DNA from: Hymenobacter sp.
Lineage (GTDB): Bacteria > Bacteroidota > Bacteroidia > Cytophagales > Hymenobacteraceae
Direction: 5' to 3'
Assembly (NCBI GenBank): GCA_028288445.1
Contig: JAQBNT010000092.1
Coordinates: 1 to 40,353 of the forward strand
Length of the DNA stretch: 40,353 bases
Shown one piece after another: positions 4,827-27,874 of the stretch. Made by a program: the position numbers and the translations under genes. A model generated the notes under the pieces. That model was not told the origin of the DNA. It was given only the letters and a program-made list of their open reading frames with translations, and made no database searches. Numbering within the stretch: position 1 is the first letter of the stretch; every line of letters starts with the position of its first letter.

Positions 4827-6215
4827 TTACTCGTCGTACGGGATGCCGTGCTTCTCGAACCTGCGGTATAATGCGCCCCTACTCAGGCCCAGGGCTTTTG
4901 CTACGCGGCTGATGTTGCCCTCGTAATGCGCCAGCGACTGCCGAATCATCTGCGCCTCCAGCTCATCGAGGGTCATGGTGCCGGGGGCGGGCAGCTCGCC
5001 GGGCGCGGGCGCGCGGGCGGGCAGGTGCAGGGTGTTGGCCTGGAAATCCTCCGGGCCTAATTCCTCTTTGCCGCTGACGAGGACGGCGCGCTCCACCAGG
5101 TTTTTGAGCTCGCGGATGTTGCCGGGCAGGGGCTGCTCGCGCAGCCAGTGCAGGGCGCGGGTGCTCACGCGCAGGGCCGGGCGCTGGTAGGTGGCGCGCA
5201 GCTGGTCGAGGAAGTGCTGGGTGAGGAGCGGGATGTCCTGGGGGCGCTCGCGCAGGGCGGGCAGGCGCACCGAAATCAGGTTGATGCGGTAGAACAGGTC
5301 TTCGCGGAAGCGGCCCTGCTGCACCATCTCGGCCAGGTTGCGGTTGGTGGCGGCGATGACGCGGATGTCGAGCCGGCGGGGTTTCGAGTCGCCGAGGACT
5401 TCGTAGGTGCGGTCCTGGAGCACGCGGAGCAGCTTCACTTGGCTGGCTAGCTCCAACTCGCCGATTTCATCCAGAAAGATGGTACCGCCGTTGGCCAGCT
5501 CGAAGCGGCCCACGCGGTCGGTTTTGGCATCGGTAAACGCGCCCCGGCGGTGGCCGAACATCTCGCTTTCAAACAAGCTGCTGGAAATGCCGCCCAGGTT
5601 CACCTTCACGAAGGCCTGCTGGCGGCGCGGGCTGTTGCGGTGAATGGCTTCGGCGATGAGCTCCTTGCCGGTGCCGCTTTCGCCCTCGATGAGCACGGCG
5701 GCATCGGTGGCAGCCACCTGGCCCACCTGGCGCAATACGTGCAGCAACTGGGCATCGTGGCCGATAATGTCCCGAAAGGCAAACTGCTGGTCGAGCTGGC
5801 GGCGCTGGCGGGCGGGGGCTTCGGTGGGCTCCGTTTCGGGCGGGTTTTCGCGCACGGCCAGCACCGTGCGGATGGTCTGGAGCAGGCCGTCGTTGTGCCA
5901 GGGCTTGGTCACGAACTCGGCGGCCCCGGCCTTCATGCCCTCCACGGCCAGCGCGATGCTGCCCCAGCCGGTGATGAGGATGACGGGCACTTGCGGGGCC
6001 ACGGCCTTCACCTGGGCCAGCAGGGCCAGGCCGTCGTGCCCGCTGGTATCGAGGGAGAAATTCATGTCCATGAGCACCAGCCGGGGCGGGGCGTCGCGCA
6101 CCACGGCCAGGGCTTCGGCGGGCGTCGCCACGGCCTGCGCGGGGTAGCCGGCCTGCTTCAGCAGCAGCTTCAGCGAGGTGCGGATGGCCAGGTCGTCGTC
6201 GATGATGAGAAACAT
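4827..6215 (-). CDS. Sigma-54-dependent NtrC-family response regulator
   Basis: A 462-residue transcription activator. The receiver domain (1-115) has the acidic cluster at 6-8, phospho-acceptor Asp50 and Lys104. The AAA+ domain has Walker A GESGTGKE (178-185) and Walker B GGTIFLDE (243-250). The sigma-54-contacting loop reads GAFTDA (225-230) instead of canonical GAFTGA; I recall this D variant as common in Bacteroidota activators, so it need not mean loss of function. A Fis-type helix-turn-helix lies at about 430-458 (ISRVAKALGLSRGALYRRF). It probably receives phosphate from the kinase at 3382. Same-strand genes upstream encode an ABC efflux system headed by a sigma-54-like promoter (13528), the likeliest target. 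A 42-bp palindrome array starts 66 bp upstream of its ATG. Confidence 0.95.
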   Translation of the reverse strand: MFLIIDDDLAIRTSLKLLLKQAGYPAQAVATPAEALAVVRDAPPRLVLMDMNFSLDTSGHDGLALLAQVKAVAPQVPVILITGWGSIALAVEGMKAGAAEFVTKPWHNDGLLQTIRTVLAVRENPPETEPTEAPARQRRQLDQQFAFRDIIGHDAQLLHVLRQVGQVAATDAAVLIEGESGTGKELIAEAIHRNSPRRQQAFVKVNLGGISSSLFESEMFGHRRGAFTDAKTDRVGRFELANGGTIFLDEIGELELASQVKLLRVLQDRTYEVLGDSKPRRLDIRVIAATNRNLAEMVQQGRFREDLFYRINLISVRLPALRERPQDIPLLTQHFLDQLRATYQRPALRVSTRALHWLREQPLPGNIRELKNLVERAVLVSGKEELGPEDFQANTLHLPARAPAPGELPAPGTMTLDELEAQMIRQSLAHYEGNISRVAKALGLSRGALYRRFEKHGIPYDE

Positions 6216-6280
6216 ATTTAACTAAGGAGTAAGGCCGGTGAAACCGAGTCAAAACTCGCCATCGATGGCGCTTCGGAACC

Positions 6281-6504
6281 GGTACGCGCGTACCACGGGC
6301 ATTTCCAGCCGGTGGAGGCTTTGGTACGTGCGTACCATGAGCATTTCCGGCCGGCGAAGCCCGTGGTACGCGCGTATCACGGGCTTTTCTGTTTGGCGAA
6401 GGGCGCAGTACGCGCGTACTACGGGCTTTTCCGTCCGGCCAAGTCCGTGGTACGCGCGTACCACGGGCATTTTTGCGCGATGAAGCCTGCGGTACGTGCG
6501 TACC
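6281..6504. repeat. Tandem array of six palindromes at an exact 42-bp period
   Basis: The core palindrome GGTACGCGCGTACC or a close variant begins at 6281, 6323, 6365, 6407, 6449 and 6491, always 42 bp apart. The 28 bp between cores are also related (ACGGGC-A/T-TTT near the start, GAAG-CCGT near the end), so some cores extend: 6445-6466 is a perfect 22-bp palindrome and 6357-6386 a 30-bp palindrome with one mismatch. Core 4 begins AGTACG and ends CGTACT, a paired change that keeps the symmetry. A separate perfect 14-bp palindrome lies at 6257-6270. The array fills the gap between the DUF2807 gene and the sigma-54 activator gene. All reading frames through it tend to stay open because 42 is a multiple of three. 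Confidence 0.93.
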
Positions 6505-6519
6505 GCGCACTTATTTCGC

Positions 6520-7221
6520 TTACCGGCTTTTCACGCTGCCGCCGCTACTGGTGTGCTTGCTCACGCGGGGCGAGCCGGCGTAGCGGATGTCGCCGCCGCT
6601 GCTGGCATCGGCCGTGAGGGTTTCCTGCACGGCCACGGCCACGTTGCCGCCGCTGCTGGCGTTGGCCTCGCAGGCGCGGGCCGTCAGGGCATCGCCCTTG
6701 AACACGCCGCCGCTGCTCGCGCCCACGTCGAGGCGCTGGGCGGTACCGGCCAGCGTGGCCACGCCGCCGCTGCTCACCTTGGCGCGCAGGTCGGTGCTGG
6801 TGAAATTAGCCTTGAGCGATGCGCCCGACGACACGGCCACGTCCAGGCCCTGGGTGGTGAAGGCGCCCACCACTTCGGCGTGGGCACCGCTGCTGGCGTG
6901 CAGGGCCGTGAGGCTGGTGGCCGTGACGTTCACACGCAGGTTGTGCACGTTTTTCAGGCCCAATGACTCGGCCCACTCGCGGTCGAAGCTGATTTTGAGC
7001 ACGCCGTCGCGCACTTCGGTGGTGAGGCGGGCGAGCTGGTCGGCGTCGTCGGCGCTGGCTTCCACGCGCTGGGTGGGGCCGGAGCTCAGGCGCAGCTCGA
7101 TGCCGTTGCCCACCACCACGGCGTGGACGCTGGCCACGCTGCGCACCTGGGGCGCGGTTTGGGCAAGGGCGGCGGCCGTGCTCAGGAAGCAGAAAAAGGC
7201 GGTGGCGGTGAGTGTTTTCAT
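6520..7221 (-). CDS. Secreted DUF2807 (GIN / adhesin-head) protein
   Basis: A 233-residue exported protein with an N-terminal signal peptide (MKTLTATAFF to about Ala20-Gln21) and then a DUF2807 beta-solenoid. The solenoid is visible as strands separated by SSGA/SSGG turns about every 20 residues (six or more between residues 105 and 230). The family is described as a putative autotransporter adhesin head; the biochemical role is not known, and the protein is probably periplasmic or surface-attached. The open frame runs far upstream into the permease gene, but the ATG at 7221 coincides with the signal peptide and is clearly the start. It lies 119 bp downstream of the permease at 7341 on the same strand, and upstream of the palindrome array. 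Its link with the efflux genes is positional only. Confidence 0.88.
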   Translation of the reverse strand: MKTLTATAFFCFLSTAAALAQTAPQVRSVASVHAVVVGNGIELRLSSGPTQRVEASADDADQLARLTTEVRDGVLKISFDREWAESLGLKNVHNLRVNVTATSLTALHASSGAHAEVVGAFTTQGLDVAVSSGASLKANFTSTDLRAKVSSGGVATLAGTAQRLDVGASSGGVFKGDALTARACEANASSGGNVAVAVQETLTADASSGGDIRYAGSPRVSKHTSSGGSVKSR

Positions 7222-8550: not shown

Positions 8551-8665
8551 TGAATGAGGAATGAAGAATGGGGAATGAAGAATTGTAAATCGGTACTGGA
8601 GAGGTGAAAATTGAGGGCATGGTACATGCTTAATTCCTCATTCTTCATCCCTCATTCTTCATTTA
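8551..8665. repeat. Palindromic repeat, family C, copy 1, between two permease genes
   Basis: The left arm (8551-8585) is built of GAATGAGGAATGAAG-type units and the right arm (8631-8665) is its complement. The arm end supplies the TAA stop of the upstream permease gene (8663-8665). Read on the minus strand in the frame of the downstream permease it would encode FFIPHSSFLI, the same peptide seen inside MurF-Alr. Confidence 0.85.
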
Positions 8666-22940: not shown

Positions 22941-25529
22941 TTATTCGCTCACGAATACCCGTTTCACCCGCTCGCTCACATTGGTGAGCAGCTCGTAGGC
23001 AATGGTGCCGATGCGACCGGCCAGCTCCGGCAGCGGCAGCCCCTCGCCGAAGACCAGGGCCACGTCGCCGGCCCGGGCGGCGGGGATGGTGGTTACGTCC
23101 ACCATGCACATGTCCATGCACACCGAGCCCACCAGCGGGGCCGGCTGGCCGTGGATGAGCACCGTGCCCGTGCCGTTGCCGAAGCGGCGGTCGTAGCCGT
23201 CGGCGTAGCCAATGGCCAGCGTGGCGATGCGGCGCTCGGTGGCGGCGGCGGTGCCCCGGCGGCCGTAGCCCACGGTGAAGCCGGCGGGCAGGGTTTTAAT
23301 CTGGGAAATGGTGGTGCGCAGCTGGCTCACGGGGCGCAGGGCAGCGGGGTCGGCGGTGTTGCTGGCATCCACGCCGTAGAGGCCGATGCCGAGGCGCACT
23401 ATGTCGAACTGCGCCGCCGGAAAGCGCAGGATGCCGGCCGAGTTCAGCGCGTGCTTGAGCACGGAATGGCCCAAGGCGGCTTCCAGGGCCGTGGTCATGC
23501 GGCGGAACGCTTCTAGCTGCTCGTGGGTGAAGTCGTCGTGGCTGGGCTCGTCGGCGGCGGCGAGGTGGGTCATCATGCTGGCCACGGGCAGGCGGGCGGC
23601 GTGCCGGCGCAGGCGGGCAGCCAGGGCCGGCAGGTCGGCTTCGTCGAAGCCGAGGCGGCGCATACCGGTATCGAGCTTGAGGTGGATTTTGGGGGCGGGC
23701 AGCGCGTTTTCGGTGGGAATATCGAAGGTGGAGAGGTACTCGTCCAGCATCTCGAAGGAGTATATTTCGGGCTCCAGGCGGTAGCGGCGGAGGGCTTCGA
23801 AGGCATCGGGGGCGGCGTTCATCACCATGATAGGCAGGCTGATGCCAGCTTCGCGCAGGGCCACGCCTTCGTCGGCGTAGGCCACGGCGAGGTAGTCGGC
23901 GCGCTGAAATTCGAGCAGGCTGGCTACTTCGTAGGAGCCCGCGCCGTAGGCGAAGGCTTTTACCATCACCATGAGCCGGGTGCCGGGGTTCAGTTGGCGG
24001 CGGTAGTGCTGGAGGTTGTGGCTGAGGGCATCAAGGTTGACTTCGAGCACCGTGCCGTGCTGCTGGGCCTGCAAGGCAGCCACGATGCGCTCGAACCCAA
24101 AGCGCCGGGCACCTTTGATGAGGATGGTTTCGTGGGCGAAATCGGTGGGGTTGAGCTGGGCGAGGAAGGCTTCGGTGGTGGGGAAAGTTTGAATGAGGAA
24201 TGAGGAATGAGGAATGAGGAATTGGCTGTTAGCGCCTTCCTCAATCGTTGACTCAGTTCCTAATTCTTCATTCCTCACTCTTAATTGCGATGAAATCTCC
24301 TCCCCGATGCCCACCAGCCGGCTTACGCCGGCGGCGGGCAGCAGGGCGGCCACGCGGGCGTATAGTTCTGGGCTGCTCAGGCCCGATTCCAGCACGTCGC
24401 TGAGGATGAGGGTGCGGCGGCCGGGGCGGCTTTGGCGGGCCAGGGCGTTGAGGGCCAGGGCCAGGCCGGCGAGGTCGTTGTTATAGGTGTCGTCGAGCAG
24501 GTAGGAATCATGGCGGCCCAGCTTCATTTCCAGGCGCATGGCTATGGGGTGCAGGCGTAGCAGGCGGCGCTGAATCTCGGCCGGCTCTACCTGCCGGTGC
24601 AGCAGCACGGCCAGGCAGTGCAGCGCGTTTTCGATGGAAGGCTCGTCGGCGAAGGGCAGCGTGAATGCGGCGCTGAGGCCAGTGGCGGGGTAGTCGGCGT
24701 GCAGGCGGGTGGCATGGGTGGGGCTGGCTTCGGTGGTGAAGCGCAGGTCGGCGGGCTGCGCGGGCAGGCGCGTCCAGCAGAAGCCGGGAAGATGCTGGGC
24801 GGCCACAGCAGCGCGCACCAGGGGCTGGTCGGCACAGTAGAATAAGCGCTGAAAATCCGGGCCCTGAAACAGCTGCAGCTTCTCGCGTAGCTTCTGCTCC
24901 TCGGAAGCAAAGCCGGCGTCGTGAGCGGTGCCGAGGTTGGTGAACAGGCCTTCGGTGGGTTGGATGATGGTGGCCAGCCGGGCCATCTCCCCTATTTCCG
25001 AAATGCCGGCTTCAAAAATCCCCAACGTGTGGCGCGCGGGGTTCAGCTCCCATACGCTCAGCGGCACGCCCACCTGCGAGTTGTAGGAGCGCGGCGAGCG
25101 GCAGATGTCTTCGTCGGGGCTCAGCAGTTGGGCCAGCCACTCTTTCACGATGGTCTTGCCATTGGAACCAGTGATGCCGATGACGGGGCCGCCAAACCCG
25201 GCGCGGTGCGCCGCCGCCAGCGCCTGCAGGGCCGCCAACGGGCTGGCCACGGCCAGGATGCCGGCCCCGGCGTACGCGGCCAGGCCGTCGGGCAGGGCCG
25301 CGCTTTCTTCCACCACAAACAGGCGCACGCCCTGGGCGTAGAGGTCGGGCAGGTAGCGGTGGCCGTCGTGGCTGGGGCCGCGCAGGGCGAAGAACACCGC
25401 CCCGGCGGGCGGGCCTACGCGGCGGCTATCGAGCAGCAGGTGGCGCACTTCGGCCGTGGCATCGGCGGGGGCTTGCAGCAGGCGGCCGGATACGCGGGCG
25501 GGCAGGTCGAGGAAGCGGGGGAAGAGCAT
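22941..25529 (-). CDS. murF/alr: Bifunctional MurF ligase / alanine racemase
   Basis: An 862-residue cytoplasmic fusion for peptidoglycan precursor synthesis. The MurF half (about 1-490) adds D-Ala-D-Ala to UDP-MurNAc-tripeptide. Its ATP loop is GITGSNGKT (118-126), with EAGISEIGEM and LDDTYNND further on. The alanine racemase half (about 495-862) makes D-alanine; PLP-binding Lys524 is in MVKAFAYGAG and the C-terminal region has VGYGRRG with the catalytic tyrosine. This fusion is a known Bacteroidota arrangement. The start at 25529 gives MLFPRFLDL; the reading upstream to 25550 has no support. Residues 416-447 are encoded by a family C palindromic repeat inserted in frame near the end of MurF, between GEEISSQ and TFPTTEAF. 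Confidence 0.95.
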   Translation of the reverse strand: MLFPRFLDLPARVSGRLLQAPADATAEVRHLLLDSRRVGPPAGAVFFALRGPSHDGHRYLPDLYAQGVRLFVVEESAALPDGLAAYAGAGILAVASPLAALQALAAAHRAGFGGPVIGITGSNGKTIVKEWLAQLLSPDEDICRSPRSYNSQVGVPLSVWELNPARHTLGIFEAGISEIGEMARLATIIQPTEGLFTNLGTAHDAGFASEEQKLREKLQLFQGPDFQRLFYCADQPLVRAAVAAQHLPGFCWTRLPAQPADLRFTTEASPTHATRLHADYPATGLSAAFTLPFADEPSIENALHCLAVLLHRQVEPAEIQRRLLRLHPIAMRLEMKLGRHDSYLLDDTYNNDLAGLALALNALARQSRPGRRTLILSDVLESGLSSPELYARVAALLPAAGVSRLVGIGEEISSQLRVRNEELGTESTIEEGANSQFLIPHSSFLIQTFPTTEAFLAQLNPTDFAHETILIKGARRFGFERIVAALQAQQHGTVLEVNLDALSHNLQHYRRQLNPGTRLMVMVKAFAYGAGSYEVASLLEFQRADYLAVAYADEGVALREAGISLPIMVMNAAPDAFEALRRYRLEPEIYSFEMLDEYLSTFDIPTENALPAPKIHLKLDTGMRRLGFDEADLPALAARLRRHAARLPVASMMTHLAAADEPSHDDFTHEQLEAFRRMTTALEAALGHSVLKHALNSAGILRFPAAQFDIVRLGIGLYGVDASNTADPAALRPVSQLRTTISQIKTLPAGFTVGYGRRGTAAATERRIATLAIGYADGYDRRFGNGTGTVLIHGQPAPLVGSVCMDMCMVDVTTIPAARAGDVALVFGEGLPLPELAGRIGTIAYELLTNVSERVKRVFVSE
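24189..24290. repeat. Palindromic repeat, family C, copy 3, in frame inside murF/alr
   Basis: The left arm (about 24191-24225) has GAATGAGGAATGAGG units and the right arm (about 24256-24284) carries TAATTCTTCATTCCTCACTC. It is the same element family as at 8551 and 9941. In the minus-strand reading it adds about 32 residues including RNEELGTE and FLIPHSSFLI, without a stop or frameshift. Confidence 0.88.
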
Positions 25530-27727: not shown

Positions 27728-27874
27728 CTCCTATTCGTCACGGAAGCATCACTAGGCATCACGAGGACATCACTAGGTCCCACGGACGGGTCACTAAGTT
27801 CCAAATGCACATCACTAGGCGTCACGGAGACATCACTACGCACCACATGGTAGTCCCTACGGGCCATGTGCCGA
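27728..27874. repeat. Tandem array, 21-bp period, seven units
   Basis: Units begin at 27728, 27749, 27770, 27791, 27812, 27833 and 27854, with no spacing error. The consensus is close to TCACTAGGCNTCACGGAGA plus two bases. The motif TCAC recurs inside the best units at offset 10, giving a 10-11 bp sub-period. The first and last units are degenerate. The array lies between the katA terminator and the SPFH promoter. Confidence 0.88.

Follow-up and report, generated by a model that had tools for sequence, protein, structure and literature searches.

The window considered here, a stretch of 40,353 nucleotides from Hymenobacter sp. (contig JAQBNT010000092.1 of assembly GCA_028288445.1), carries in one intergenic gap six 14-bp palindromes phased at 42 bp. 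These palindromes constitute one array of a family of 42-bp-phased arrays and probably serve as a cluster of binding sites for a protein family, here called family X, whose members are predicted to be all-helical and possess a basic tail. Many arrays of this kind directly follow X genes and the tail of X covaries with the palindrome, which is why the arrays are likely to be X docking sites. We regard it as evenly balanced whether X and its arrays represent a new protein-DNA address system, in which a helical scaffold bears a swappable basic tail that reads a 14-bp palindrome, a five- or six-fold copy of the protein's own address lies phased by four helical turns at the 3' end of its gene, tail and address change repeatedly and in concert, and orphan arrays like that of the window mark other gene ends. 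If this were true, phased palindromes that are unexplained throughout the genus would be tied to a protein family unnamed in the family libraries searched, and dozens of natural tail/site pairs would be at hand for deciphering a possible recognition code.

Family X comprises proteins of about 235 amino acids, which were found because their genes flank 16 of 32 curated arrays. Pfam and NCBIfam returned no match over the cut-off for X, and relative to the family libraries and the open-licence literature searched, which do not cover all literature, the family is undescribed. X is predicted to be all-helical, and the better model, with a predicted local distance difference test score (pLDDT) of 91, has a basic C-terminal helix at residues 218-233. 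The tails are basic (+0.24 per residue, net positive in 68 of 69) and the body is neutral. By using a protein pattern, X was fetched from named genomes at 12 loci, all from Hymenobacter and all with an array. A search of the genus detected X in 38 of 120 genomes at an E value of 1e-8, often with several paralogues, and the 17 genomes with a match to the array model (E 1e-5 or better) are all among these 38, the model having been trained on arrays from 13 of those genomes. Among 50 X loci tested, out of the best 51 of 80 genus-search matches, 44 have a 42-phased array (score of at least 15) after the stop codon; 40 score above 16, the highest value among 500 random flanks, and in 43 of the 44 the array lies within 80 nt of the X stop codon. 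When the period was varied as a control, 43 of 47 X flanks scored at least 15 at 42 bp, 31 each at 41 and 43 bp, which share slack with 42, and 3 to 9 at 34-40 and 44-51 bp. The palindrome types vary among X subfamilies (e.g. CGGGACTTGTCCCG, CGTACCGAGGTACG, GCCGGGCACCCGGC and CCGGACGTGTCCGG). In the whole order, X was matched in 22 of 390 genomes belonging to five genera. A listing of X proteins, own included, comprises 111. One sister genus has X with arrays at L229, L230, L254 and L257, and three X homologues of the same genus have no array (L255, which is broken, L256 and L258). Moreover, the genome from which the window derives contains an X homologue (L247 on G000:C189) with one lone palindrome, CGGCACCGGTGCCG, and no array; this palindrome is possibly a relic.

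The covariation of tail and palindrome is seen among 45 distinct X/array pairs, for which the tail-core correlation given body identity is r = 0.208, a value reached in 0 of 5000 permutations. At body identities of 60-90%, the half-site identity is 0.87 for similar tails (n = 22), 0.49 for middling tails (n = 69) and 0.33 for dissimilar tails (n = 49). In a set of 17 X proteins (16 different), the tail class as read by eye agrees with the core class in 17 of 17. The best body tree of this set requires 7 changes of core class, a count that is weakened as support by the poor resolution of the tree and by shuffled labels averaging 9.7 changes; thus, core classes are also partly inherited. Furthermore, the cores of same-class arrays are 0.85 identical and those of different-class arrays 0.30, a difference that partly follows from the definition of the classes, whereas the linkers are 0.54 and 0.49 identical. 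Since arrays of the same class have their cores in common but hardly their linkers, simple hitch-hiking with recently moved DNA is an unlikely explanation.

The window array is an orphan of the GGTACG class, other arrays of which are found behind X genes encoding ALISK or ALVSK tails. The first-pass annotation of the window had described the 42-bp phase, and this could be confirmed at all six positions (core starts 6281, 6323, 6365, 6407, 6449 and 6491, with every step exactly 42). Tandem Repeats Finder returned 5.4 copies of period 42 at 6280-6504, and a detector that takes only symmetry and period as input, and no sequence, gave the array a score of 28 as compared to at most 11 in 100 Markov-resampled sequences of 12 kb each, the window being 40 kb long. 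The paired change at both ends of core 4 was found as previously reported, and the G-T in core 3 is present on the plus strand. However, the suggestion that it would be tolerated as G-U in RNA does not hold, because the flanking genes are on the minus strand and the operon transcript therefore has an A-C mismatch. The central T-G of cores 2 and 6 had escaped the earlier annotation. Its view that a coding explanation is less likely accords with the gap, which has no coding-like open reading frames, and symmetry is preserved via paired changes.

Within the same genome, 23 matches to the array model were obtained with both strands counted, all matches listed falling within three arrays. The second array (L012) has an identical core and lies between an AhpC/TSA peroxidase gene of the bcp type and a transketolase gene, and the third (L136) has another core, TCCGGAGGTCCGGA, and lies behind an X gene. 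A search of relatives for the core at 42-bp spacing, as had been suggested, found a GTACG-type core twice at 42 bp with at most 3 mismatches in 11 of 120 genomes of the genus. Arrays occupy the bcp gap in 9 of 30 loci read, their cores being, for instance, GGTACGCGCGTACC, TGCAACCGGTTGCA, TCCGGTGCTCCGGA or a mixture, and are absent from the other 21, close relatives among them. Across the Hymenobacteraceae, the arrays retain palindromy and the 42-bp period, and the core varies between arrays, being mostly uniform within one. The free drift of spacing and loss of symmetry that would have spoken against a functional phase were not observed: of the 193 steps in 36 curated arrays, 175 measure 42 bp, 11 measure 41 and 7 measure 43, and an alignment of 64 dimers contains 359 cells with both partners changed, where shuffles yielded 203 and slid controls 139 to 189. 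A predicted stop codon lies within 63 nt of the array start in 28 of the 32 curated arrays, which are not independent, as 16 flank X genes and 5 represent one orthologous site.

How docking might work can be outlined from these features. The tail of X would read one half-site, X would act as a dimer on each palindrome and, since 42 bp correspond to four helical turns, multiple copies would align on one face of the duplex DNA. Arrays without an adjacent X gene, the window array included, could be docking sites in trans for an X whose specificity matches, or else remnants left by a former X. The most likely role may be to limit read-through by forming a nucleoprotein block at gene ends, a role preferred because most arrays begin at stop codons and the first unit is often a terminator-like hairpin. 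In the window, such a block would part the operon encoding efflux functions and a DUF2807 protein from the gene of a sigma-54 dependent regulator and that of its histidine kinase.

Several observations weigh against docking by X, and some of them concern the window array itself. In its own genome, the GTACGYGCGTAC core is confined to two orphan arrays and no X bearing a cognate array was found, the one array-bearing X being of the TCCGGA type. This assembly is 92.8% complete and consists of 311 contigs; the window array is therefore perhaps a relic, or its partner lies in the unassembled part. For 14 of 21 orphan arrays, the catalogue contains no matching X; the other 7 match one resident in their genome, which is more than in shuffled genomes (mean 3.06, with 267 of 20,000 shuffles equally high) and speaks for use in trans, the matching being rough because the half-sites were read by hand. 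Among distant X proteins with body identities below 45%, the tail-core signal fades considerably (Spearman 0.145), and in fold comparisons of X none of the known DNA-binding folds stands out. Moreover, 6 of the 50 X loci score below 15; the flanks of L186 and L217 end at contig ends, and L186, L205 and L212 were read as irregular, degenerate or single palindromes. X homologues also occur in other families of the order, where arrays are absent in those read. As regards position, three of the 32 curated arrays (L060, L065 and L069) lie between divergent genes, with flanking gene families common to these loci, and a fourth (L141) lies 285 nt from the nearest stop codon; the mixed arrays L071, L075 and L081 combine several core types. 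The divergent-gene arrays are also at odds with a block at gene ends, and the window array has no terminator-like hairpin on its sense strand.

The main rival to X docking is a selfish life like that of repetitive extragenic palindromes (REPs) and the REP-associated tyrosine transposases (RAYTs), in which the arrays would be mobile elements spread by X or another enzyme, as proposed for the spread of REPs by RAYTs, and binding would be only a step in spreading. We consider this possible but clearly the less probable explanation. It is suggested by the presence or absence of arrays at one and the same gene gap among close relatives, by cores that are common to orphan and X-linked arrays, and by the pairing of a gene with palindromes, which resembles RAYT/REP (PMC2817692). 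In addition, two genomes have a weak match to Y1_Tnp (PF01797) no more than 1.3 kb from an X gene (G069:C1:625086 and G082:C16:886106). However, PF01797 at E 1e-5 is unmatched in the window's own genome and in G023, G067, G074 and G083, the latter four of which have X with arrays, and the H-hydrophobic-H motif occurs in 0 of 71 rows of X, which is predicted to be all-helical. There are few arrays per genome, and no target duplication was noticed at the empty site of the closest relative, which was read by eye without an alignment.

It appears improbable that the units are transcribed hairpins, acting as terminators or stabilisers of mRNA, whose palindromes are kept by RNA pairing, although the first unit lends itself to such an interpretation. 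The unit nearest the stop codon often forms a perfect hairpin with an A-tract, a GC-stem and a T-tract, and its mean symmetry is 14.7 of 20 in 31 arrays (15.1 in X-linked arrays) as compared to 11.4 to 11.8 in units 2-5 (10.9 to 11.7). Covariation in alignment A1 is also strong. Yet the symmetry of units 2 to 5 is largely confined to the 14-bp core. Were the sense RNA of importance, G-U would be expected to be tolerated and A-C not; 22 arrays with a clear sense strand contain 27 G-U and 25 A-C mismatches in their outer five core pairs, and the cores of X-linked arrays show a weak excess of G-U (44 G-U and 26 A-C), which would favour hairpins. These counts do not support the hairpin chain maintained by pairing in the operon messenger that the first-pass annotation had offered as one of two ideas. 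RNA pairing also leaves the 42-bp phase and the match between tail and core unexplained, and terminator-like sites on the window array exist on the antisense strand only. As G-U is not clearly preferred and symmetry past the first unit is found chiefly in the core, the data favour, without proving, that the cores serve duplex DNA and that a terminator shares the first unit. Paired base changes in palindromes need not imply RNA pairing. A lone terminator-like hairpin, 19-of-20 symmetric and with the core TCTACGCGCGTAGA, was seen at 3347-3360 of L150.

Still less credence is given to a functionless tandem repeat that arose by slippage and became palindromic by template-switch repair of quasi-palindromes. 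Such repair yields paired changes in one step, and palindromy alone is therefore no proof of selection. However, the linkers are near background while same-class cores stay alike across species, off-period steps are rare despite linkers differing at 44% of sites within an array, and the tail covaries with the core.

The regulator locus of the window was compared with its relatives in 30 orthologous loci (own included), taken from 110 genomes with a match; two of them (L307 and L312) end at contig ends and are hardly tested. A DUF2807 match lies upstream of the regulator in 22 of the 30, own included, and an array of the window type was found in the window's own genome only. The closest relative, whose regulator is 94% identical, has a gap of 125 nt and no array. 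In the same gap upstream of the regulator, L302 and L315 carry palindromes that are phased but differ in core (CCGCAATACCGCGG type and CCGGGAAATCCCGG type, respectively), and L293 has a faint phased chain with a score of 14, the null maximum being 13. Inverted repeats of the GTCATGCTGAGC or a related type were observed in the gap before the regulator at L295, L298-L301, L303, L311 and L316. This gap seems to be a hot spot where palindromic elements of various kinds occur. As an operator of the sigma-54 gene the window array is not conserved, because relatives keep the regulator without the array and sister arrays follow unrelated genes. The other earlier idea, in which a dedicated regulator would control the sigma-54 activator through the array as its operator, is thus largely refuted and very improbable despite the position of the array directly upstream of the regulator gene, since 21 of the 29 other loci retain the DUF2807 match as well; what survives of it is the sequence-specific DNA-binding protein on phased sites, which is the better of the two ideas, and not the link to sigma-54.

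Table 1. Phased palindromes of the window and the genes on either side
Feature	Position	Strand	Basis or remark
Phased array, six 14-bp palindromic cores, 42-bp period	6281..6504		Cores, Tandem Repeats Finder, phase detector
Core 1, GGTACGCGCGTACC	6281..6294		
Core 2, GGTACGTGCGTACC	6323..6336		Central T-G
Core 3, GGTACGCGCGTATC	6365..6378		G-T at 2/13 on the plus strand, equal to A-C on the operon strand
Core 4, AGTACGCGCGTACT	6407..6420		Both ends changed as a pair
Core 5, GGTACGCGCGTACC	6449..6462		
Core 6, GGTACGTGCGTACC	6491..6504		Central T-G; closest to the DUF2807 stop codon
DUF2807 (GIN domain) gene	6520..7221	-	Pfam PF10988; stop codon to array 15 nt
Sigma-54 dependent response regulator	4827..6215	-	Pfam PF00158, PF00072, PF02954; array to start 65 nt

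The genes upstream of the array resemble an efflux operon (MacB/FtsX, HlyD and OEP). Tandem Repeats Finder also reported repeats at 8552-8583 and 8625-8662, at 24191-24222 and at 27736-27838 of the window (14-bp, 7-bp and 21-bp units, respectively).

Among known systems, clustered regularly interspaced short palindromic repeats (CRISPR) have identical repeats, unrelated spacers and cas genes; in the arrays described here, the linkers show partial similarity and the repeats consist of palindromic cores. In type III toxin-antitoxin systems, a repeat array lies upstream of the toxin gene with a terminator between them. Their antitoxin is made of multiple RNA repeats (PMC8860590). X and its arrays are similar to these ToxIN-like systems in that a protein gene lies beside a tandem array of short repeats, but the arrays were found downstream of X, the upstream side not having been scanned with the detector, and X is predicted to be all-helical. 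PADLOC returned only weak single matches. Clustered sites of the operator or centromere type are bound by small dimeric proteins, and here, too, palindromes are phased by whole helical turns beside the gene of the presumed binder. In contrast to such clusters, the sites are 3' to the gene, there are numerous X paralogues, each having its own core, and a known DNA-binding domain was not found in X. The first unit past the stop codon often resembles an intrinsic (Rho-independent) terminator, but more units follow, phased at 42 bp and symmetric mainly in the core.

A further likeness is to REPs, which favour gene ends. Their palindromy is maintained by complementary changes, tandem arrays of bacterial interspersed mosaic elements (BIME-2) bind gyrase, REPs usually exceed 100 copies per genome, and in the REPtron the gene of a RAYT lies beside its cognate palindromes (PMC2817692). 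The X-type palindromes are likewise intergenic, often arrayed and subject to complementary changes. However, the array lies on one side of the X gene, as 42-bp direct repeats, and the copy number is low, the core pattern occurring in only two arrays of the window's own genome. No GTAG or CGTC tag of REP units was seen by eye in the unit consensus, the units not having been scanned singly. X lacks the H-hydrophobic-H motif of HUH tyrosine (Y1) transposases and is predicted to be all-helical. Thus, by the tests made X is not a RAYT, but the working principle of X and its arrays resembles that of RAYT and REP.
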